Below, piece by piece: positions 27,654 to 54,408 of a stretch of 64,000 bases of DNA. Under the pieces are notes generated by a model. It was given only the letters and a program-made list of their open reading frames with translations. It searched no databases and had not been told where the DNA came from. The stretch is from a virus: positions 1 through 64,000 of IMG/VR virus record IMGVR_UViG_3300031673_016569; one strand, written 5' to 3'. Every line of letters begins with the position of its first letter. Positions within the stretch are counted from its first letter, which is position 1. The translations under genes and the position numbers were made by a program.

Positions 27654-29384
27654 CTACACGAAGAACAGTTGAAACTTTTTCTCGGGCTCGGCCGCGACGC
27701 CCATCACGCCGACCGCCATGAAGAGCGCGCACGCGTCGTCGATCTTGTCGGCACTGCGCTTTTTGTCGGGCGCCATGTTCATGTTCTCGTCGCGCCGCGG
27801 CACTACATTGGAGGCGCACCAGTTCAGGACCGCATCGCCGCCGTGGCGCAGGTCCCCGCGCAGGTACAGGCGCTCGGTTTCCTGCATCGCCGGGTGGTAG
27901 GACTTCGGTCCCTGCCTGAATTCCTGCAGCGGCAGCTCGGCCGCCTTCAGCCGGTTCACCAGGTCGCGGATGTTCCAGGGGTCGTAGGCGATGACCTTCG
28001 GCGCGAACCGGTGCGCAATTTCCACGATGTCCTGCTCGATCCGGGCGTAGTCGAGGACGGTTCCGGGGAGTTGACGGATGAGCCCCGCCGCGACCCACCC
28101 GGCGTAGGGCACCGTGCCGCGCTCGGTGCGCTGGGCGATGGCGCCCTCGGGCACCCAGCGCCGGCCCCAGGTGTAGACGATGCCATCGACGCGCCACACC
28201 AAGCGGAAAGCCATGATGTCGGTCGTGGCCGCGCCGTCGATGCCCGCCCAACATTCCTTACCTTGAAGAAAATCCAGGTCGACCGGGCCGCTGCAGCGCT
28301 TCCAGCGCTCGATGTTGAGCCAGGTATTGGCCGCCGCGGCCTGCCGGTTCAGCCGCTTGATCTTGAATTCGGCGTGCCGGCCCGGCATCTGCTTCGCGTC
28401 CGCCGCAGCCTTCTTGATCTCCCGGTCCAGGATCGGGTTGACGTCCATCAGCGGATTCGCCTTCTGCCACTTCGACGCATCGAAATCCTCGTCCGCCGGC
28501 CGATACCCGGGTTGCCCAGGCTCGCCGATCTGCTCGTCCAGCGCGAAGATCAGCGCAAAAAAGTGGTCGGCCTCAAGAATGCCGTTCAGGACCTGATGCG
28601 CGTAGTGCCGCATCTCGGGCCACGGCCCCGGCGTCTCGTAGCCTTCGGTCGTGGTGTAGAGCCACAGGGCATTGAGCCTCGCGCCCGCGGCCGACTGCAG
28701 CACGTTCAAGAGGTCGTGCGTCTTGTGCGCGTGGATCTCATCGAGCGCCACATGCGACGGGTTCAGCCCGTCCTGCGTCGAGGCATGGGCGTTGATCGGC
28801 TTGAAGTTGCCGCCGACCTGCCAGTTCACGATGGCGCTCGCGAACACCTCCAGGTTGAACGCCTCGCGCAGGTCCTGCGTCTGCTCGACCATGCGCCGCG
28901 CGATGTTGAAGATGATGCGCGCCTGATCGCCCGTGGTTGCTGCGGTGATGACCTGCGGCCCGGGTTCCGGTTCGTAGCACAGGCAATAGAGCAGGACCGC
29001 CGCGGCGAGAGTCGATTTGGCGTTCTTGCGCGCCACCGCAAAGAGCGCACTCGTGAACCGTCGCGTGCCGTCGAGCGACCGAAAGCCAAACAGGTTGACC
29101 AGGAAAAACACGTGCGCCGGGTGCAGCACGATGGTCGGCGTTGCCCACTTGCCCTCGACGTGAGGGAGCTGCTCGATGAACTTGCAGACTTCGCGTGCGT
29201 GCGTGGGCGAGAACTTGAACGGGCCGCCTTTTTCCGCCGCGCGCTTGCGATCCTTGAGGTAGCGCGAAGCCGCGAGGCGTATCCATTTGCAGTGTGCCTC
29301 GCCCCCTACATCGGCGATCGCCGCGCGCGCGAAGGCATTGGCAACCGCGACAAAATCACGCTCGGCGCCTCGTTTTGCCCCCAT
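27654..29384 (-). CDS. terL: Terminase large subunit
   Basis: 576 residues. ATPase motifs: Walker A of the form ARKNAKST (about 118-125) and Walker B HVALDEIHAH (about 213-216). The C-terminal nuclease region contains WAGIDGAATTDIMAF, VIAYDPWN and DDACALFMA, whose aspartates are the expected metal ligands. It belongs to the Terminase_1 family that pairs with P27-type small subunits. It overlaps the terS 3' end by 29 bases. It powers and cuts DNA during head filling. Confidence 0.93.
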   Translation of the reverse strand: MGAKRGAERDFVAVANAFARAAIADVGGEAHCKWIRLAASRYLKDRKRAAEKGGPFKFSPTHAREVCKFIEQLPHVEGKWATPTIVLHPAHVFFLVNLFGFRSLDGTRRFTSALFAVARKNAKSTLAAAVLLYCLCYEPEPGPQVITAATTGDQARIIFNIARRMVEQTQDLREAFNLEVFASAIVNWQVGGNFKPINAHASTQDGLNPSHVALDEIHAHKTHDLLNVLQSAAGARLNALWLYTTTEGYETPGPWPEMRHYAHQVLNGILEADHFFALIFALDEQIGEPGQPGYRPADEDFDASKWQKANPLMDVNPILDREIKKAAADAKQMPGRHAEFKIKRLNRQAAAANTWLNIERWKRCSGPVDLDFLQGKECWAGIDGAATTDIMAFRLVWRVDGIVYTWGRRWVPEGAIAQRTERGTVPYAGWVAAGLIRQLPGTVLDYARIEQDIVEIAHRFAPKVIAYDPWNIRDLVNRLKAAELPLQEFRQGPKSYHPAMQETERLYLRGDLRHGGDAVLNWCASNVVPRRDENMNMAPDKKRSADKIDDACALFMAVGVMGVAAEPEKKFQLFFV

Positions 29385-29844
29385 CGATCAGATCCAGAAA
29401 ACGATTCTTTTTGTTGCTCGGCGCACCGGTAGCGACGCGCGAGCGCGACGAAGGCGTCATGCCGAACTCGGTTTCGAGCTTGTGCATCTGCTCCATTGCC
29501 TTGTTCGCGATGGCCAGGTACGGGTTTTGAATCGGGAACCCGGACGGCGAGATCAGCACTTCGCCTTGCTTCGCAACGTAACTCTCGGCCACAGTCCAGC
29601 GCCCGTACGCCTGGCAATAGGCGGAGAAGGCGTTGATGTCGACCTCGCTGATCATCTTGTTGCGCAGCAGTATCGGAAACGTGCGCGCCCACTCGACGCG
29701 CGCCTCGCCGGAAAGATGCGCAGGCGGGTTCGGCGTTTCGTCAACGCCCTCGGGCTTAGGCTCCGACTCGTTCAGCGGTCGATGTCCGGGATGGCCGGCG
29801 AGCAGTTTGAGGTGCGTCGCCTTCGGTTTTCGACCTGGGCGCAT
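29356..29844 (-). CDS. terS: Terminase small subunit, P27 family
   Basis: 162 residues. The opening RPGRKPKATHLKLLAGHPGHRP and the FSAYCQAYGRW and NPYLAIANKAMEQMHKLETEFGM elements are typical of P27 (Terminase_4) small subunits. It recognises the packaging site; a structured repeat region just upstream (30024-30170) is a candidate for that site. Start at 29844 has a short AGG ribosome site. Confidence 0.9.
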   Translation of the reverse strand: MRPGRKPKATHLKLLAGHPGHRPLNESEPKPEGVDETPNPPAHLSGEARVEWARTFPILLRNKMISEVDINAFSAYCQAYGRWTVAESYVAKQGEVLISPSGFPIQNPYLAIANKAMEQMHKLETEFGMTPSSRSRVATGAPSNKKNRFLDLIDGGKTRRRA

Positions 29845-30148: not shown

Positions 30149-30430
30149 TGCGCTCGGTGGGAAAATTCCCGGGTACGATACCCTGAGCAACCAGGAGCTC
30201 TCAGTGCCCTGGCCGGGGAGCCATCTAGGTGCAAATCTGCGCACCGCTAGAGCACTCCTATTCGTTTCCTACTGCGTCTGCAGGTCGAAGCTGAGGCGGC
30301 CCATACCCTTCGGTCTATAGACAAGGCTAAGGCGTTGTCCTAGGCTGCGTATCCGTAGGCCCTCGTGTTACTGCAACGGGGGCTGCCACTTACCCCGATT
30401 ACTCTGGCGCGATGCACAGCATCTGAAATA

Positions 30431-31243
30431 ATGACTATCGCCATAGTGCGAAAGATGAAATTGGATCTCGCCACATTTGACGGACGACTCCTGGACGGCC
30501 TTAAATTTTGCCAGAGGGTTTACGCGCTGTTCGACCAGACAAGGGCTGGAGCCGATGGCATTGCGAATCTTCGGCTGCGGCCGACGAAGCTGGAGAAGCG
30601 CTTAATCGAAGAGCTTATCCCCTTGGCTCGCTACGTGCAGGCGCGCTACCGCGAAGGCCGTCGTATCAAAGTGCGCTGGTTCAGTGGGTCACAGCCATAC
30701 GACGCCATCCTGTTATTTTCCGGCGCATTCGTTGAGAAAGGCTACGCGCCGAGAAAAATCTTCGCTGAAGTTACAACGTCCGTTCACCCAAGCGAATACC
30801 TCGTACGTGAGCAGCTGCACGAGCAGGGCCACTCCTTCGGTGTTAAGCGTATATCGCGGGACAGAAAGACCCGCGCTATTGTTTCGACACCATACGTCAA
30901 TACCAATGATGAGAGCCAAGCCGACCTGGCGGCTCGGATAATCGATCGGATTAAGAACAAGAGCAAGAAAGGCTATACGCCAGACACCGTGCTGATTGTC
31001 TATTGCGTGCTGGACGGCGTAACCCTTGAGGATGAATGGGACGAAGCCATCAAGCGCGTGACCCAAGCCGATACGCGCCATGCGTTTAAGGAAGTGTTTC
31101 TAATCGACACAAGTTCAAATTCCTTTTCGGCCACGCTGTACGGCGATCCGAAGCGTGTACCAAAGAAAGACTTGCCCGAAACAGACGAGTCGCGCGTTAC
31201 GCCCCCGGGCGTGGCCAACCCAGCGCATAAAGCTGGTCCTTGA
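30431..31243 (+). CDS. Moron protein of unknown function, possible nuclease-like fold
   Basis: 270 residues from the ATG at 30431; another start is possible at 30455 (MKLDLATFDG), and an ATG-less extension upstream seems unlikely. A segment with YDAILLF, then KIFAEVTTSVHPSEYLVREQL resembles the beta-beta-alpha core of PD-(D/E)XK proteins, but the lysine expected after the glutamate is a threonine, so it may be inactive or a different fold. It is on the opposite strand from the structural genes and its 3' end overlaps the next gene tail to tail by 47 bases. Confidence 0.55.
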   Translation: MTIAIVRKMKLDLATFDGRLLDGLKFCQRVYALFDQTRAGADGIANLRLRPTKLEKRLIEELIPLARYVQARYREGRRIKVRWFSGSQPYDAILLFSGAFVEKGYAPRKIFAEVTTSVHPSEYLVREQLHEQGHSFGVKRISRDRKTRAIVSTPYVNTNDESQADLAARIIDRIKNKSKKGYTPDTVLIVYCVLDGVTLEDEWDEAIKRVTQADTRHAFKEVFLIDTSSNSFSATLYGDPKRVPKKDLPETDESRVTPPGVANPAHKAGP

Positions 31244-32480
31244 TCGACATGATGTCGAAGCCTTCTTTCCCCGCGTCCTTGACGATCTGTGCGGCCCACA
31301 GTTTTACGTCGGTTCGCTCCGCGTCACCTATCATGTCGCAAAACGCGGCAACCGTAGCGGCGTCCTCGCTCAGCAAGGCCGGAACTAGTTCCTCTTTCGG
31401 TATGCACGCATCGTCTCTCAGCAACTGATTGCCGAAATCCCCGCGAAAAATTTCATCGTGTTCTCTGGCGGCCGCCTCGGCCACCTCGTACAGACGTAAC
31501 GCTTCAGCGTTGCCTTTGTTGCACGCTCGCCAGACATCCGCCATGTTGCTGCGGGTGCTGTTCAGCATTTCCATGATTTGGGTTGTGTCTCCGCCAATTT
31601 GCCGCGCGCGGCCCTTGAGCGCGTCAATGCGCTGGCGAATATCGTCCAGAAAATCACTCCAGTTGCGCGGGAGATTTTCTGGCAGCTCGATGGCTTTGAC
31701 CTGTTCGCGCAGTTCGTAGAATTCGGCATCATCCTTACGCCTGGCGTCGAGCACGTCCGCCGTGGTGAGTACGCGGCGCGCGGCCGGGAACAGAAAGCTA
31801 TTGTGACGGCGCTGCAGGTGTCTCTCGTGCGCGCCTGGTTTTTCCCGCCATGACCACTGCGGAAATTGGGTCACGTCGAAGCCCGTTATGGCATCGACCA
31901 TAGGCGTGAAGAATTCTCTGGCCGCAACTTTACCGTGGACGAGGCATTCGGTGAGCGCCCAGTCGTCCTTACCGAACCCCGGATCACCCTCCGAATTGTA
32001 GAAGGGACTATCCGGCATCCGCATTAGCAAGTGCAGTGCCATGAAATATTCCGGCGGCACCGCCACGTCGCCCTCGGGTGTCGGTATCGTTTTTTTACCG
32101 GCTTTTTCTGCGGTGTTGACCGCGTCGTCGATGAGCCGTAGCAGAAATCTAGTCATGCGGCCGATGTCATTTTCCTTGTCGTCGCTTAATTGGGTGAGAA
32201 GCTGCAAGAAGCCGTCCTTGGCAATTTCCGCCTCCGGTACTCCGATGCGGCCATCCAGCAGCCAGAAGTACAAACGGGTCTGCAGTGCCCGGACGGAAAT
32301 CTGAACCGTGCTTTCCAAAGCCGGACTAACATCAACGTGCGGGCTTTTCCATTCGCGGAATGGCAGGCTGTCTGCCATGGAGTAGAAGCCCACCAGGTAC
32401 TTGACCGACTGATAGGCGTCCGTGGGCCAGGCCGGCGGTTCCGGTTTCTTTGGCGTTTTCTCCCAGAAATTCCACTTCAT
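31197..32480 (-). CDS. Moron protein of unknown function (427 residues)
   Basis: Mostly helical protein with no domain that I recognise. Landmarks: an acidic-aromatic N-terminus (MKWNFWEKTPKKPEPPAWP), a central EYFMALHLLMRMPDSPFYNSEGDPGFG, and a helical C-terminus. It lies between the ParB-like gene and the packaging region, a known hotspot for accessory prophage genes, and converges with the nuclease-like moron. No Shine-Dalgarno sequence is visible before the ATG; a TATATC about 10 bases upstream hints at a very short leader. Confidence 0.6.
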   Translation of the reverse strand: MKWNFWEKTPKKPEPPAWPTDAYQSVKYLVGFYSMADSLPFREWKSPHVDVSPALESTVQISVRALQTRLYFWLLDGRIGVPEAEIAKDGFLQLLTQLSDDKENDIGRMTRFLLRLIDDAVNTAEKAGKKTIPTPEGDVAVPPEYFMALHLLMRMPDSPFYNSEGDPGFGKDDWALTECLVHGKVAAREFFTPMVDAITGFDVTQFPQWSWREKPGAHERHLQRRHNSFLFPAARRVLTTADVLDARRKDDAEFYELREQVKAIELPENLPRNWSDFLDDIRQRIDALKGRARQIGGDTTQIMEMLNSTRSNMADVWRACNKGNAEALRLYEVAEAAAREHDEIFRGDFGNQLLRDDACIPKEELVPALLSEDAATVAAFCDMIGDAERTDVKLWAAQIVKDAGKEGFDIMSIKDQLYALGWPRPGA

Positions 32481-32788: not shown

Positions 32789-33514
32789 TCACGCGACTTT
32801 ACGCGTCGCCGTCGCTTCTGGCACGACTTTCTCCGCGTCGAGCGCGCTTACCGCGAGCTCCGCGAGCAGGCGAAGCGCGACCGCGTTGTTGATCACTTTC
32901 TTTTCCTGCTTGACCCGCACGATCGCATCGAACAGCGCGTTGAAAGTTGCAAGCTCGCCGACCAGGACCTGCGCCTTTTTATTCGCCTCGATGCGCGCGA
33001 CGAGATCGAGGAAAGCGGCTTTTTCCTCGGGCAGAAAAACGATGGTCAGCTCCTCGTACTTCGGCCGCGTGATGCCGAGCGCCGCGAGCTTCTCGTCGGT
33101 GCACTTGAAGGCGTCGTCGGTGACACCGCTGTAGCGCTTCCACTCCAGCGAATTCAGGCTCGTATAGAGCTGCGCCAGGATGTTCGGATCGTCCTTGCCG
33201 TTGATCGCGTTCTGCGACAACTGGATCGCCAGGCGCCGCTCCTCGGAGAGGTCGGTCACGATGTCGAGCACATCGGCCTCCTCGATCCCGGCCTTGATCG
33301 CAGCGCGAACGCGGTGGTTGCCACTCAGCACTTCGCCGCGGTAGACCACCGGGACGCCCATGAGCTTGCCGTCCTGCTTGATGTTGTCGACGAGCTGGCT
33401 AAACTCCTGCGGCGTCATGTAGCGCGCGTTCTTCGCGAGCAGCTTCAGCTCGCGCAGCTTGACCTTGACGATCCGGCTTTCCACCTTGTCCAGCGTATTT
33501 TCGGAGCCATTCAT
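32789..33514 (-). CDS. ParB-like protein of the prophage late strand
   Basis: 241 residues from the ATG at 33512-33514 (CCAGGA ribosome site eight bases upstream). The N-terminal ParB/Srx-like domain has VKLRELKLLAKNARYMTP, GKLMGVPVVYRGEVLSGNHRVRAAIKAG, where GNHRVRAA corresponds to the GE(R)HR motif. The C-terminal half is helical. Phage ParB-like proteins beside DNA-modification genes are thought to act with the modifying enzyme; that role is inferred here from the 116-base overlap with the methyltransferase/GNAT-like gene. Confidence 0.75.
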   Translation of the reverse strand: MNGSENTLDKVESRIVKVKLRELKLLAKNARYMTPQEFSQLVDNIKQDGKLMGVPVVYRGEVLSGNHRVRAAIKAGIEEADVLDIVTDLSEERRLAIQLSQNAINGKDDPNILAQLYTSLNSLEWKRYSGVTDDAFKCTDEKLAALGITRPKYEELTIVFLPEEKAAFLDLVARIEANKKAQVLVGELATFNALFDAIVRVKQEKKVINNAVALRLLAELAVSALDAEKVVPEATATRKVA

Positions 33515-34775
33515 GGAACACGTCCTGGAGTGATTGATTGCGAATTGCCGACTGGTACTGCAGGTGATCGACAGCGCGTTTGGCCAATTCAAAAATCCCG
33601 CGATACTTCATGGAAACGGGCTTGGTCGTGAACGCCGTGGTCACGATGTATTCGACCTTAATCAACAGCCGGCGGTTGATCGGATCGATCACTTCGCGGC
33701 AACTTGCGATCATCGGGATCAGCTTCGACAGCCTGCGCTCGCGCGAGACTGAGAAATCCGAGAGCAGGTAGAGCTCGCGCGTCTTGTCGCCAAACCGGGT
33801 TTGCGCGAAGATGAATCCGCCGGCGAGGGCCCCATCGATCAGCACCAGGCAATTGAACTGGCCCGTGGTATGTTCGATGCCTTTCGCCAGGTAGACGTTT
33901 TTCAGGTACGTCATCCGCTTGCCGTCTACGACGCACACCGATACCTTGCTCGCGCCGGTGATCGCGGCAGGATCGACCGCGGTGTATTTGAACTGCACTT
34001 CGTTCGGCAGCCGGCGCCTGAACGATGCGGCCTTGTTGCTCGAATAGGTGTAGACGGGCTTATTCGAGCCATGCCATTCCGTCGTCGGCGTGCGATCGGC
34101 AAGCAACTGATCCGAGATCACGCAGTACGGGATATGCCGCTGTTCGAGCGACGCCACAAACGCGGGCAACGAGTCCGGGTCCCAAATGCCATATTTCGGC
34201 ACCGGCCAGTCGGTGTTCTCGTTCACCAGCTTGTAGATCCGCTCATAGCCGCCCTTGTAGGTCGGCGCAAAGCACGCCACGCCACCGCCGCTTTTCTCGG
34301 CCCGATCCGCCTGCTCGATGAAGTCCCCGGCGTAGTAGTTCTCGATTTTGATTTCCGCCACCAGCGTAGCGAGCTTGGGCAGCGCTTGATCCACTAACGC
34401 CCTGAACTGCTCGCGATAGTGCCGGAAGTGCACTCGGGCATACTCGTTCTTGCTGGTGAACTGGCCCATGGCGGACGCGACCATCACAGCGGCGACCCGC
34501 CCGCGAAAGTCCAGCCCGGCGATTGCGGCTTCGACAAATTCGAGCTTGCCCCGAAAGCGGATGTCGAACTCGCGCCCCATCGCCAGCGCGCCGATGCTGC
34601 AGGTCAAGAGCGACACATCGTTCGAATACACCCGGCAGCCGGGGTGGCGCTTCTTTACTGCGCGGTCAAAGCGGAAGCTCCCCGAGCAGCCGACATACAC
34701 GTCGCCCCATTGATCGAAAGGCACGGTCGAAAGCACTTGGCCGACGACCTCTTTTGGGACTGCGCCGATAAACAT
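33399..34775 (-). CDS. Methyltransferase-like/GNAT-like two-domain protein, candidate DNA modification or antirestriction enzyme
   Basis: 458 residues. Residues 1-200 look like a Rossmann methyltransferase fold: VYVGCSGSFRFDRAV (26-40), YSNDV (50-54) and FAPTYKGGYERIY (169-181) in place of the DPPY motif. Residues about 285-400 resemble a GNAT/Mom-like domain (FNCLVLIDGALAGGFIFAQ, YLLSDFSVSRERRLSKLIP). Phages are known to carry putative antirestriction adenine methyltransferases and Mom-type modifiers; this gene seems to join both. The last 38 codons overlap the ParB-like gene and look like translation in the wrong frame. Confidence 0.6.
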   Translation of the reverse strand: MFIGAVPKEVVGQVLSTVPFDQWGDVYVGCSGSFRFDRAVKKRHPGCRVYSNDVSLLTCSIGALAMGREFDIRFRGKLEFVEAAIAGLDFRGRVAAVMVASAMGQFTSKNEYARVHFRHYREQFRALVDQALPKLATLVAEIKIENYYAGDFIEQADRAEKSGGGVACFAPTYKGGYERIYKLVNENTDWPVPKYGIWDPDSLPAFVASLEQRHIPYCVISDQLLADRTPTTEWHGSNKPVYTYSSNKAASFRRRLPNEVQFKYTAVDPAAITGASKVSVCVVDGKRMTYLKNVYLAKGIEHTTGQFNCLVLIDGALAGGFIFAQTRFGDKTRELYLLSDFSVSRERRLSKLIPMIASCREVIDPINRRLLIKVEYIVTTAFTTKPVSMKYRGIFELAKRAVDHLQYQSAIRNQSLQDVFHEWLRKYAGQGGKPDRQGQAARAEAAREERALHDAAGV

Positions 34776-36752: not shown

Positions 36753-37718
36753 ATGGCAGCAGAAATCGATACAAGCAACAACCGCCAGAATATGGCGTTC
36801 GTCGGACAAACCCCGTGGCACGGCCTTGGCTCACACCTGACCGCCGGCGCCGACATCGAAACCTGGCGCACCGCGGCCGGGCTCGCATGGGAAGTCGCGG
36901 AAACCGAAGTGCTCTTCCGCGATCAGACATTGGTGCGGGAGTTCCCCGATACCAAGATCCTGCTTCGCAGCGATACGCGGGCACCGCTCTCGGTCGTCTC
37001 CAAGTGGTACAACACCGTCCAACCGGGCGAAGTGCTCGGGTTCTTCGACGAGCTCGTGCGCGCCGGCGGCTTCGAACTTGAAACCGCAGGTGCACTGCGC
37101 GGCGGCAAGCGGATCTGGGCGCTGGCGCGAGTCGGCGAGGAAGCCAAGGTCGTTGACGGCGACATGATCAAGCCGTACCTGCTGCTCGCTACCAGCTACG
37201 ACGCCAGCATGGCGACCACGGCGCAGTTCACCAGCGTCCGGGTCGTCTGCAACAACACGCTGTCAGCCGCGATCGGCAACGGTGAGCAGAAGGTCAAGAT
37301 CCCGCACCTGTCCAAGTTCGACGCCAAGGCGGTGCGCGGTCAACTGCAGATCGCGGTCTCGGGCTGGGACGAGTTCCTGCTCCAGACCCGCCGCATGGCA
37401 GCCACACCGCTCGACGCCCAGGCCGCGGACTCCTACCTGCTGGACGTGTTCAAGTGCGACGTTGAAACGCTGGAGGCCCCGGAGAAGACCCGCAAGTCCA
37501 AGGCCTACAAGCGCGTCCTGGCGCTGTTCGACGGATCCGCTGTCGGCTCCGAGCTGGTCGGCCAGAGCCTTTGGGGAATGGTGAACAGCGTCACCGAATA
37601 CGTCGACCACGAGCGCGGCAAGCAGCGCGACTCGGCGCTCGATGCCGCATGGTTCGGCGAAGGCGCCAACCTCAAAGACCGCGCGTTCTCAGTCGCTCGC
37701 GAGCTGATTCACGTCTAA
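36753..37718 (+). CDS. DUF932 protein
   Basis: 321 residues behind a CAGGAG ribosome site. The opening MAFVGQTPWHGLGSHL, then RVVCNNTLSAAIG and FVDELVRAG-like elements are hallmarks of DUF932 (phage/plasmid-like TIGR03299), found widely in plasmids and phages near RadC and ArdC-like genes. Function unknown, often regarded as part of an antirestriction set. Confidence 0.85.
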   Translation: MAAEIDTSNNRQNMAFVGQTPWHGLGSHLTAGADIETWRTAAGLAWEVAETEVLFRDQTLVREFPDTKILLRSDTRAPLSVVSKWYNTVQPGEVLGFFDELVRAGGFELETAGALRGGKRIWALARVGEEAKVVDGDMIKPYLLLATSYDASMATTAQFTSVRVVCNNTLSAAIGNGEQKVKIPHLSKFDAKAVRGQLQIAVSGWDEFLLQTRRMAATPLDAQAADSYLLDVFKCDVETLEAPEKTRKSKAYKRVLALFDGSAVGSELVGQSLWGMVNSVTEYVDHERGKQRDSALDAAWFGEGANLKDRAFSVARELIHV

Positions 37719-37736
37719 GGCGAAACTGGAGCGGCC

Positions 37737-37755
37737 CTGCGGAATTGAACCGCAG
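37737..37755 (+). other. Intergenic hairpin after the DUF932 gene
   Basis: CTGCGG-AATTGAA-CCGCAG, 19 bases after the DUF932 stop, in a 98-base gap. No T-run; possibly an mRNA processing or stability element. Confidence 0.35.
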
Positions 37756-37816
37756 CGGTCGCCCTGGTGGAACCAGAGCAACTTTCCATTTAGCCGCAAA
37801 ACTAGGAGCAACAACC

Positions 37817-38251
37817 ATGCAATTCGACAAACGCAAAACCGCAACCATCCTCGCCGCACTGCGCTACTGGCAGCGCGAGGGCCTTATGTCCTCCGGCCAT
37901 GAGCAGGATATCGCCACCGACGACGACACCCTGCAATCCCTTAGCCGCCCGGAAATTGACGTTCTATGCGAGCAGATCAACATCGTGGACGAGCCGATCA
38001 CAATCGTCGTCGGCTGCGAGGGCGGGCTTGTCCAGGGCGCCAGCTCGAACGTGGAGGACATTCGCATGATCGTCCTCGACTACGACACTGAGGGCGCCGA
38101 CGAGGACGAGGTTACAGACGTTCCGCAGTCAAGTGAAGGGCCAGGAACGGCTGAAGATGTGCACGCCGTGGTCGGGCTCTGGGACGTCGAACATAATCCA
38201 AGCTGGGTGAAAGCCGTCTCCGACTGCGAGGCAAAGGCGAGGGTGTCATGA
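37817..38251 (+). CDS. Small early protein, paralogue A
   Basis: 144 residues behind an AGGAGC ribosome site. No recognised family; opening KRKTATILAALRYWQREGLM and a core VVGCEGGLVQGASSN, both repeated in the gene at 39913. It overlaps paralogue B by four bases. The acidic C-terminal half is probably disordered. Possibly a phage DNA-mimic-like or regulatory protein, but that is only a thought from its acidity. Confidence 0.7.
   Translation: MQFDKRKTATILAALRYWQREGLMSSGHEQDIATDDDTLQSLSRPEIDVLCEQINIVDEPITIVVGCEGGLVQGASSNVEDIRMIVLDYDTEGADEDEVTDVPQSSEGPGTAEDVHAVVGLWDVEHNPSWVKAVSDCEAKARVS
37859..37905 (+). repeat. Direct repeat, first copy (A module)
   Basis: 47 bases identical to 39961-40007, inside the two paralogous ORFs. 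Evidence of a recent segmental duplication. Confidence 0.85.
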
Positions 38252-38694
38252 CCAACGCACAAGCAGCAGCAAACGCGCGCAAGCCTTACGCGGACAAAAT
38301 TCGTTCCATGGTCGCAGAAAGCGACACCATGAGCGCCCACATTTCCGCACTGACCACCCTCAACGCCGCGCTGCTAACGGCGCTGAAGGAATTTGTCGCC
38401 GACGTTGACGCCGTTGGCGCCAGGGAGGTGGGGAAGGACTGGCCCGACCTGCTGGTCAGCTATAACAAGGCCAGGGCCCTCATCGCCAAGGTCCCAAATG
38501 CGGACAATCCCGCCACGCCGGCCGCAACCGACAACTGCCAGGCCTTGCTCGAGTCGGTACACGAGGAACTAAAAAACATGGGTTTTGATAGTGATGACCC
38601 AATCGACGGCGGCGACTGCTGCGAGTACCTGGGCAAACTGTTCGTGGATGTCGGGGAAGCACTCGAACGCGACGGCGCCAAGGTGACAGCATGA
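38248..38694 (+). CDS. Small early protein, paralogue B
   Basis: 148 residues. The C-terminal part (ALLESVHEEL, IDGGDCCEYLGKLFVDVGEAL) is repeated at the end of the gene at 39913. The N-terminal half is an unassigned helical region. ATGA-type overlaps with both neighbours show one translation unit. Confidence 0.7.
   Translation: MTNAQAAANARKPYADKIRSMVAESDTMSAHISALTTLNAALLTALKEFVADVDAVGAREVGKDWPDLLVSYNKARALIAKVPNADNPATPAATDNCQALLESVHEELKNMGFDSDDPIDGGDCCEYLGKLFVDVGEALERDGAKVTA
38602..38645 (+). repeat. Direct repeat, first copy (B module)
   Basis: 44 bases identical to 40453-40496; encodes IDGGDCCEYLGKLF in both genes. Confidence 0.85.
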
Positions 38695-39912: not shown

Positions 39913-40545
39913 ATGAACGCTACATTCGATAAACGTCAGTCCGCTACCATCCTAGCGGCGCTGCGCTACTGGCAGCGCGAGGGCCTTATGTCCTCCGGCC
40001 ATGAGCAAGATATTGCCACGGATGGCAACAGCATAGATGCTCTGGACGCCGAGGACATCGACGCCCTGTGCGAGCAGATCAACGTGCCCGCCGCCACGCC
40101 CATCATTGTGGTCGGCTGCGAGGGCGGGCTAGTGCAAGGTGCATCGTCGAACATCGAAGGCCTGTCCATGATCGTCCTGGACTACGACACTGAAGGCTGC
40201 GATGACGACGAGATTACCGAAGTTCCACAGTCCGACACGGTAGAGCCGGAGTCGGCCATCGTTGGATTGCACACCGTCGCGCACGATGCGCCCTGGATTC
40301 AGCAGATTGTGGCGGCTGCCGGACTCAAGGACACCGACGGAAAGCCCCTGGAGTTGGTTGCCGGAGCAGCGCAGGATTCCGGCAACTGCCGCGCACTACT
40401 CGAATCTGTCCATGAAGAGCTTGAAGGCATGGGCTTCGGCACGGATCAATCTATCGACGGCGGCGACTGCTGCGAGTACCTGGGCAAACTGTTCGTAGAC
40501 GTCGGCGAGGCTCTGGAGCGCGATGGCGCCAAGGTGACAGCATGA
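39913..40545 (+). CDS. Fused duplicate of paralogues A and B
   Basis: 210 residues. The N-terminal part copies the protein at 37817 (TILAALRYWQREGLMSSGHE, VVGCEGGLVQGASSN) and the C-terminal part copies the end of the protein at 38248 (LLESVHEELEGMGF, DGGDCCEYLGKLFVDVGEAL). The order A-B is kept, but the two are joined in one frame. Nucleotide identity is near complete in blocks, so the event is recent. Confidence 0.8.
   Translation: MNATFDKRQSATILAALRYWQREGLMSSGHEQDIATDGNSIDALDAEDIDALCEQINVPAATPIIVVGCEGGLVQGASSNIEGLSMIVLDYDTEGCDDDEITEVPQSDTVEPESAIVGLHTVAHDAPWIQQIVAAAGLKDTDGKPLELVAGAAQDSGNCRALLESVHEELEGMGFGTDQSIDGGDCCEYLGKLFVDVGEALERDGAKVTA
39961..40007 (+). repeat. Direct repeat, second copy (A module)
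   Basis: Identical to 37859-37905. Confidence 0.85.
40453..40496 (+). repeat. Direct repeat, second copy (B module)
   Basis: Identical to 38602-38645. Confidence 0.85.
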
Positions 40546-52577: not shown

Positions 52578-53156
52578 CTAGCGAATACGCGCGCGGTGTC
52601 GGCTCAGGCTAGTGTCGAACTGCTTCCAAGAAGTTTCTTTCTGCCTCCCGGCGTCATCAGTCCAACGTAGTAATCCGGAATCGTCGCGAATCACGCCGGC
52701 CTTTTCTAGCGCCAGGCGCACACGTTTTGAAGGCAAGTCAATGCCTTCGCTTTCCAGGATCGCGAGCGCCTCGCGATACAGGAGAGAGAGAGGTCGCTTG
52801 TTGCCAGTGAACTGTGCACCCCGTTTCGCCAACGGGAGTGCGTACGAATCGAGCTCTTCCCTAGCTTTATCGGCTGCACTCCTGAGTTCTACCCCGTGCA
52901 GCAAATCCCGATGTTGAACTTCGAGCATTTCATCCACGCACTTGAGCGCAAGAAAATTTTTCTCGCTTATCACTCTCGCCCTGGCGGCCTTATACAGTAT
53001 TCCGCGCGATAGAGATTCAGGCGTGAGGCGCTCACCGAGGACAGCGCGAACTTCGGAGTAAATCTCTTTTGCCTTCGCTTTTAGTTCTTCGATCGTTGGT
53101 GGAGCTTCGAGGGCTTCCATGGCGGCCGCGAACTTGGTTGTGGTCGCCTTAACCAC
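52578..53156 (-). CDS. Unknown protein downstream of the integrase
   Basis: 192 residues starting at a GTG that overlaps the integrase stop. Helical and basic, no family recognised; the C-terminal half has LYREALAILESEGIDLPSKRVRLALEKAG, which looks like an HTH-type helical pair. Possibly a regulator or directionality factor for the integrase. Confidence 0.55.
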   Translation of the reverse strand: MVKATTTKFAAAMEALEAPPTIEELKAKAKEIYSEVRAVLGERLTPESLSRGILYKAARARVISEKNFLALKCVDEMLEVQHRDLLHGVELRSAADKAREELDSYALPLAKRGAQFTGNKRPLSLLYREALAILESEGIDLPSKRVRLALEKAGVIRDDSGLLRWTDDAGRQKETSWKQFDTSLSRHRARIR

Positions 53157-54408
53157 GGTGCGCCACCTTCTTTAGCTTCACCACCTTGGCGCGCTTTTTC
53201 ACGCCTCCGGCCTCGAGCATCGCGCTCGTCGCCGTGTTCAGCGATGCCCGCACGGGGTCAAGACTCAATCGCGCGTAGATCATCGTCGCATCGGCGGACT
53301 TATGGCCGAGCGACTTTCCGATGATCGCGAGCGATGCGCCGCTGATCGCCTGCCACGATCCGAGCGAGCGGCGCAGGTCGTGAATCCGCAGGTCCGCAAT
53401 CTTGGCCCGCGCGAGAAGCGCACGCCAGCGCTTCTTCGGCGGCGTCGCGTAGCCCGTTGCGGAAGGGGCGGAAAACACGTAGCCCGCATCCTGCGGCGTG
53501 CGCTCGCGCAGGAGTTCGACGGCCTCGGGCACAAGGGCGACCACCTGCGGGTCATCGTTCTTGGTCTGAGGTATGCGCCATGTCGCGGCCTGCAGGTCTA
53601 CGTCCTGCCAGCGCATCGCGAGCACGTTGCTTCGCCGAGCTCCGGTTAGCAGGGAGAACAAGACGAAGTGCTTGAAATCCTCGGACGTATCGGCGGCCAG
53701 GGCGGTAAAGAATCGCGGCAGCTCGCCGCCCTGAATGAAGCGGTCGCGCTTCGTTTCCTTGAACGGCTTGATGCCGTTGGTGGGATTGTTGCCGCGGTAT
53801 CCCGCCTCGATCGCTCGGTTGTAGACACTACTCAACAGCTCGACCACGCGGTTCGCCATGGTCTTGTGCGTCTTGCCTATGCCGGCGTGCAGGGAGCGAA
53901 CGGCGGCGTTGTCGATCGCGTCGAGCTTGCGCTTCGACCAGTCCACTCCTGCAGGGTGCTTGGCTCGTTTGCGGCCGTGCATTTTCGCTGGCTCATCGGG
54001 CAGGGTGCCCAGGCAGCGCTCCCATAGCGCATGGATCTCCGCAGCGCTCTTGATGCCGCGCGGCGAGACGTGGAGCACGCGGTAGGCCTCGTAGGCTTCG
54101 CCAAGCGTCTGCTTATCGCGTTCTGCGCGCTTAGCCGCATTCGGGTTGATACCTTTAGCGAAGTCCCCCAGGATGCGCTCCGCGGCCTTCCTGGCGCCTT
54201 CTGGCGTCATATCGGGAAAGGTGCCGAGCTTCACCCATGAAATGACTGCGCCGTCGCGCTTGACCACATAGAAGGTGCGCGCGCCGGCCGCGGTCAAGCG
54301 GATTGCGAGTTTCGGAACTTCAGTGTCGTAGATGACGAACCGGGCGCCATTTTTCGGCAAAGGAAGGTTGGAAAGGGCGGTTTTCGTGAAGCGTTTTCGT
54401 ACTGTCAT
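53149..54408 (-). CDS. P4-type tyrosine integrase of the prophage
   Basis: 419 residues. N-terminal DUF4102 domain (FTKTALSNLPLPKNGARFVIYDTEVPKLAIRLTAAG, split by eye) and C-terminal catalytic region: LFSLLTGARRSNVLAMRW (Arg), LRIHDLRRSLGSW (HxLR), SLGHKSADATMIYARL (His and Tyr). P4-like integrases target tRNA genes. The gene starts 145 bases from a tRNA-Arg 3' fragment, with repeated GGCTAAC sites between, consistent with an attachment site. Confidence 0.92.
   Translation of the reverse strand: MTVRKRFTKTALSNLPLPKNGARFVIYDTEVPKLAIRLTAAGARTFYVVKRDGAVISWVKLGTFPDMTPEGARKAAERILGDFAKGINPNAAKRAERDKQTLGEAYEAYRVLHVSPRGIKSAAEIHALWERCLGTLPDEPAKMHGRKRAKHPAGVDWSKRKLDAIDNAAVRSLHAGIGKTHKTMANRVVELLSSVYNRAIEAGYRGNNPTNGIKPFKETKRDRFIQGGELPRFFTALAADTSEDFKHFVLFSLLTGARRSNVLAMRWQDVDLQAATWRIPQTKNDDPQVVALVPEAVELLRERTPQDAGYVFSAPSATGYATPPKKRWRALLARAKIADLRIHDLRRSLGSWQAISGASLAIIGKSLGHKSADATMIYARLSLDPVRASLNTATSAMLEAGGVKKRAKVVKLKKVAHRG

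Follow-up and report, generated by a model that had tools for sequence, protein, structure and literature searches.

We describe a pair of phage genes, one encoding a fusion of a Dam-like methyltransferase-fold domain with a GNAT-fold domain and the other a ParB-like protein, that are linked almost without exception and often lie next to the terminase genes. We put the probability at about one half that the pair constitutes a single phage DNA-hypermodification (antirestriction) module, made together with the late and packaging genes. The pair was found in a stretch of 64,000 nucleotides (the window) of a viral record of 67,184 bases. The source is a tailed phage with an integrase gene (53149-54408) as a marker of a temperate lifestyle. 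Searches of the window against Pfam and PHROGs placed the genes for terminase, portal, capsid and tape-measure proteins all on the minus strand, which also carries the pair.

The fusion protein and its two pockets

The fusion gene (34775..33399, minus strand) begins with ATG and encodes 458 aa belonging to PHROG 7858. Residues 2-255 (34011..34772, minus) match Pfam PF22555, DAM-like-phage1 (1.1e-46; 159.8 bits, cut-off 27), and residues 276-427 (33495..33950, minus) match PF22559, GNAT-phage-like (7e-45; 153.2 bits, cut-off 27). The phrog_7858 match spans residues 1-429 (1.2e-92) and is annotated by PHROGs as "unknown function". These entries represent the same family and architecture as the window protein; they give no function, and our search of the open-licence literature turned up no paper connecting them with a ParB-like partner, terminase synteny or an amidoligase swap. 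Across the entire fusion protein, the top viral match was an 'amidoligase enzyme' (E 7e-24). Searching the sequence against solved structures returned chance matches only, and a PADLOC search left the protein unmatched. An AlphaFold2 model based on 86 sequences had a mean pLDDT of 94.7 and a pTM of 0.83. When this model was compared with solved structures using Foldseek, one half matched methyltransferases, with the rRNA methyltransferase AviRa (1o9g/h) first and E. coli Dam (4rtp) also present, and the other half matched many GNATs, including Mu Mom S124A (8bv8) at rank 10. The first-pass annotation, made from the letters alone, had proposed a methyltransferase-like N-terminus joined to a GNAT C-terminus and named structure prediction as a check. 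The Foldseek matches show that its fold calls were correct, in agreement with the Pfam matches.

The methyltransferase-fold half contains a motif I-like stretch, VGCSGSF (residues 28-34; 34674..34694, minus), in which C30, S31, G32 and F34 are nearly invariant. At the place of xDPPY it has FAPTY (residues 169-173; 34257..34271, minus), so that APTY does replace DPPY at residues 170-173, as had been claimed. Position 170, the D of DPPY, was D, N, S or E in none of 67 non-redundant relatives (Asp absent in 67/67), in a register that comes from an hhalign comparison with Dam whose alignment is itself not significant but that matches the register of the first-pass annotation. Across 139 aligned sequences this position is P, A, L or T, and the motif reads FAPTY or FPPTY. 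The sequence-profile comparison of the fusion protein with Dam reached a probability of 0.6%, which is not significant, and the likeness is at the level of the fold only. E. coli Dam and the D12-class N6-adenine methyltransferases have in common with the window family the Rossmann methyltransferase fold and the motif I-like and ND positions, but their DPPY Asp is absent from it. In relatives with the same N-terminal domain (the DAM type), the pocket formed by C30-S31-G32, D53, D151, P171, Y177 and E178 is nearly invariant.

Two homologues (L070 and L100) carry intein-like inserts of ~245-275 aa directly after FPP[T/F][Y/F]. The inserts, at L070:6511-7245 and L100:5170-6012, lie at the same point of motif IV and match NF038136 (7e-12 and 1.4e-9, respectively); they also contain a LAGLIDADG-like stretch and a match to TIGR01445 (intein_Nterm) that stays under the cut-off. 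Inteins usually sit at functionally critical sites, and these inserts are therefore consistent with an active motif IV.

The GNAT half carries the signature PVSMKYRG (residues 386-393; 33597..33620, minus), in which S388 and K390-G393 are invariant in the DAM type; with D340, K351, T379 and Y407, they make up a set of nearly invariant positions among DAM-type relatives. This half had been called Mom/GNAT-like. The GNAT assignment stands by both Pfam match and fold; a likeness to Mom in particular is not supported. The structural match to Mu Mom (8bv8_B) has an E of 9e-4, and generic GNATs score equally well or better. The Mom family, PF25680, had no match in the fusion protein or anywhere in the record, and hhalign against Mom gave a probability of 26.6% over 53 columns, short of the conserved Mom columns E108/R111/S146/D149/Y159. 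We rejected membership of the Mom family on this search and profile comparison; common to Mom and the fusion protein is the GNAT fold.

The ParB-like partner and the gene overlap

The ParB-like gene (32789..33514, minus; phrog_7405, 2e-63) encodes 241 aa comprising a ParB/Srx N-domain and a helical C-part. It starts with ATG; a longer ORF with a TTG start from 33592 exists, but the ATG is the conserved start. The ParB nucleotide-binding (P/Box II) motif, SGNHR (33311..33325, minus), shows no variation at S64, G65 or R68 across 69 non-redundant sequences; the role of the Box II Arg in this motif is taken from PMC12704722, according to which ParB-fold proteins fused to methyltransferases or acetyltransferases bind ATP or GTP. 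In a fold search, the ParB/Srx domain of the model lay near ParB-CDP complexes. A further match is to phrog_498 (7e-16), in which ParB domains are fused to DNA methyltransferases. The protein shares with canonical partition ParB the nucleotide-binding domain with its P motif but lacks the HTH_ParB domain, for which Pfam gave no match, in contrast to a second, canonical ParB of the same phage (38972-39898, plus) that has HTH_ParB. Also on the plus strand, a pair of adjacent genes at 37571-38694 resembles the two halves of a 210-aa ORF at 39913-40545, which suggests a duplication plus fusion.

Using the fusion protein alone as query, we collected 160 loci from viral contigs, phages and genomes; many of these are near-identical, and about 70 are left at 70-75% identity. 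A ParB-like gene was present near 158 of the 160, within 300 nt downstream in 146, further downstream in 8 and upstream in 4, and the two loci without it are contig-end or truncation cases. At one locus (L261:4263-6350), the DAM-like, GNAT-phage-like and ParB-like parts form a single ORF of 695 aa, although these parts may be translated separately since a methionine precedes the ParB part. The coupling to a ParB-like gene noted at the outset in one phage is thus borne out. In two further loci, one gene of the pair is disrupted: the fusion gene is split by an in-frame stop at L024:2342-3706 and the ParB gene is frameshifted at L040:5032-6118, owing either to decay or to sequencing error.

In the window, the C-terminal tail of the fusion protein and the N-terminus of the ParB-like protein are encoded in different frames by the same 116 nt (33399..33514, minus), exactly the overlap first described, and an AGGA Shine-Dalgarno-like box (33523..33526, minus) precedes the ParB-like ATG. 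In all ten sequences compared, those of the window and nine close relatives, the genes overlap by 110 or 116 nt, and the ATG is conserved with AGGA 8-9 nt upstream of it. Compared with the relative L001, substitutions amounted to 3.5% (4/113) in the overlap versus 14% (176/1260) and 11% (59/523) in the single-coding parts; for L083, the values were 2.7% versus 15% and 9% in the flanking coding parts. This depletion is strongest in the closest pairs and weak or absent in L008. Because length and AGGA box are kept and substitutions are depleted in the closest pairs, the overlap goes beyond chance; on these sequence comparisons, we take it to be dual coding with independent initiation. In more distant clades, the overlap is shorter or missing, which makes the linkage general and the long overlap local. 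It had been suggested that the overlap hides a frameshift fusion. A programmed frameshift yielding a methyltransferase-GNAT-ParB polyprotein would accord with the contiguous three-domain ORF in L261, but a conserved ATG and ribosome-binding site belong to the ParB-like gene itself, the overlap is fixed in length among close relatives and it is short or absent in most other loci. We therefore rejected the frameshift fusion, which we regard as scarcely credible.

Amidoligase-bearing relatives and terminase synteny

A sister architecture, represented by 29 loci, has an Amidoligase_2 N-terminus, then a DAM-like domain, matched by PF22556 (DAM-like-phage2) or weakly by PF22555, and the same GNAT. 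The ParB-like gene accompanies 28 of the 29; the exception is a contig end. In a joint alignment of the DAM and amidoligase types, the methyltransferase pocket is lost in the amidoligase type, and the GNAT pocket (D340, T379, S388-G393 and Y407) is retained in both. This contrast between the two pockets argues that the methyltransferase pocket is in use and not a relic. Judged from this alignment, the DAM-type pocket thus appears to be under selection that is relaxed where an amidoligase is present, and the two N-terminal activities, SAM site and amidoligase, may be interchangeable. Proteins with DUF488 (mostly DUF488-N3a) occur near the amidoligase-type loci L187-L215 (11 of 90 neighbours sampled, 13 loci) and in a cluster of 13 DAM-type loci (L045:11524-12018).

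Downstream of the module in the window lie the genes for the terminase small subunit (29356..29844, minus) and large subunit (27654..29384, minus), both identified by Pfam and PHROGs matches. A 427-aa ORF (31197..32480, minus) w/o family match separates them from the module. A plus-strand ORF of 292 aa (30365-31243), which has no Pfam or PHROG match, stands alone within the minus-strand late block and is possibly a moron gene. For 146 loci, 3 kb or more of downstream sequence was available; 116 of them have a terminase large subunit after the module, at a median distance of 557 nt. This count is a lower bound, limited to the TerL families screened for. The TerL proteins next to the module fall into eight sequence clusters. 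In the actinophages Clawz (a Gordonia phage) and Jollymon, the pair is upstream of the portal gene, and in the Mycobacterium phage Jeon it is close to the genome end. A synteny search had been advised in the first-pass annotation, and both the pair and its adjacency to terminase proved to recur across loci.

A candidate DNA-modification module

The chemistry, and DNA as the substrate at all, are what we infer from the data above. In the proposed mechanism, the Dam-like domain would recognise and flip a base in phage DNA and use a SAM-type cofactor for some step that is not N6-adenine methylation, given that the whole family lacks the DPPY Asp. The GNAT domain would then transfer an acyl-type group from CoA, either onto the same base or onto one already modified, and the ParB-like NTPase would load or license the enzyme on DNA, as is thought for DpdB and the ParB proteins next to other modification enzymes. 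Virion DNA bearing the mark would be shielded from restriction in a subsequent infection. An ATP-dependent amidoligase would replace the SAM step in the sister architecture. The full scheme, in which a single protein carries out a SAM-dependent step at the Asp-less Dam-like site and then a CoA-dependent acylation of a base presented by a ParB-type NTPase, with the amidoligase in place of the SAM step in the sister lineage, is tentative and on balance unlikely to be correct in all its parts. The SAM and amidoligase steps might share a chemistry if each capped the same carboxylate, one forming a methyl ester and the other an amide.

Several phage systems offer precedents. Cytosine carboxymethylation-amidation by CmoX/CmoY involves a phage methyltransferase-fold enzyme with SPPC as motif IV and an ATP-dependent amide ligase, and ParBc genes lie in the same contigs (PMC12783734). 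An altered motif IV and a ParB-type gene are thus common to both systems, but motif IV of the window protein has no Cys, the AMP-forming ligase of CmoX/CmoY contrasts with a GNAT here and an amidoligase occurs only in the sister architecture. We found no CmoA gene (TIGR00740) in the 67-kb record, which may itself be incomplete. CmoX demonstrates that an altered motif IV can accompany new chemistry, and amide ligation on a modified base does occur in phages. DpdB, a member of the ParB superfamily, pairs with the DNA-modifying DpdA (PMC12839542). In DpdB/DndB and the phrog_498 ParB-DNA methyltransferase fusions, as here, a ParB-superfamily protein goes with a DNA-modifying enzyme; that enzyme differs, however, and the window-type genes are separate except in L261. 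Mom-like genes of Microbacterium phages adjoin ParB-like genes, and Mu mom overlaps com. In the Microbacterium phage Appa, the ParB-like gp46 overlaps the Mom-like gp47 by 8 nt (L163:2469-3621), and the Arthrobacter phage StevieBAY (L168) has a ParB-like gene two genes ahead of one for a Mom-like acetyltransferase. By analogy, the best reading is that the module resembles CmoX/CmoY/ParB or Mom/ParB in architecture but derives from different families.

A DNA-modification module is supported by the folds, the two conserved pockets, the linkage to a ParB-like gene with an intact nucleotide motif, the terminase adjacency, the three-part ORF of L261, the inteins in motif IV, the likeness to phrog_498 and the CmoX/CmoY, DpdB and Appa precedents. 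The idea of a modification or antirestriction module, put forward from the single locus, is strengthened above all by the linkage in 158/160 loci, the natural three-domain fusion and the terminase-adjacent synteny. Against it speak that proteins, peptides and small molecules are likewise substrates of GNATs and amidoligases, that AviRa, the best methyltransferase match, methylates RNA, that the Dam profile comparison was not significant and that nuclease and regulatory functions occur in the ParB superfamily. Since the phage is temperate, as its integrase indicates, global modification would need timing to spare the host.

The target could instead be a protein (a packaging protein or RNA polymerase) or a metabolite, acylated or capped by the methyltransferase/GNAT or amidoligase/GNAT protein with the ParB-like protein as a nucleotide-sensing partner. 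The Amidoligase_2 N-terminus of the sister proteins fits such a role; PMC11318856, citing Iyer 2009, discusses modification of cell-wall receptors or peptides by amidoligase-bearing phage proteins, and phage GNATs acetylate host RNAP (PMC7824862). The Dam-like fold and the constant ParB-like partner nevertheless point to DNA, and other ParB/methyltransferase and ParB/Mom pairs are DNA-associated, so we regard this explanation as unlikely, though worth serious consideration. The position directly before the terminase subunits, across eight TerL clusters, and the nicking activities reported for the ParB superfamily (PMC5512222) would suit an accessory role in packaging at cos rather than antirestriction, the ParB-like protein nicking or clamping packaging-site DNA and the fusion protein marking or protecting the site. 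A late position is, however, equally expected for an enzyme that modifies DNA before packaging, and the pairs of Clawz, Jeon and Jollymon have no annotated terminase alongside, that of Jeon lying near the genome end; this role seems to us rather improbable. An ordinary phage adenine methyltransferase whose motif IV has diverged, with a purely structural GNAT domain, would explain why Dam is among the structural matches and why the Dam-like motif I/ND residues are nearly invariant. The DPPY Asp is missing from every non-redundant relative, however, and the GNAT pocket survives loss of the methyltransferase pocket, which makes this a very unlikely account.

In the open-licence literature, we found no paper on the fusion/ParB-like pair, on the Pfam names or on DUF488/amidoligase with ParB. 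The module had been presented as possibly undescribed; this holds in that literature for the pair, but Pfam has curated entries for the domains, and PHROGs lists the whole protein. Already known, therefore, are the two curated domains and, by name only, the family; the near-universal pair, its terminase synteny, the amidoligase swap, the natural fusion and the motif IV inteins are absent from the literature searched.

If DNA is modified, the pair would be a two-gene system for a new base modification, adding a base chemistry, and one role would be explained for many orphan phage ParB-like proteins. The natural domain swap between SAM site and amidoligase would then serve to dissect the contribution of each step. 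Carriers are phages and prophages of Proteobacteria, Actinobacteria, Bacillota, Planctomycetes, Chloroflexi and others, and include isolated, culturable actinophages whose DNA is directly analysable. Even if the target were a protein, the near-universal pairing and the terminase synteny define a conserved phage function.
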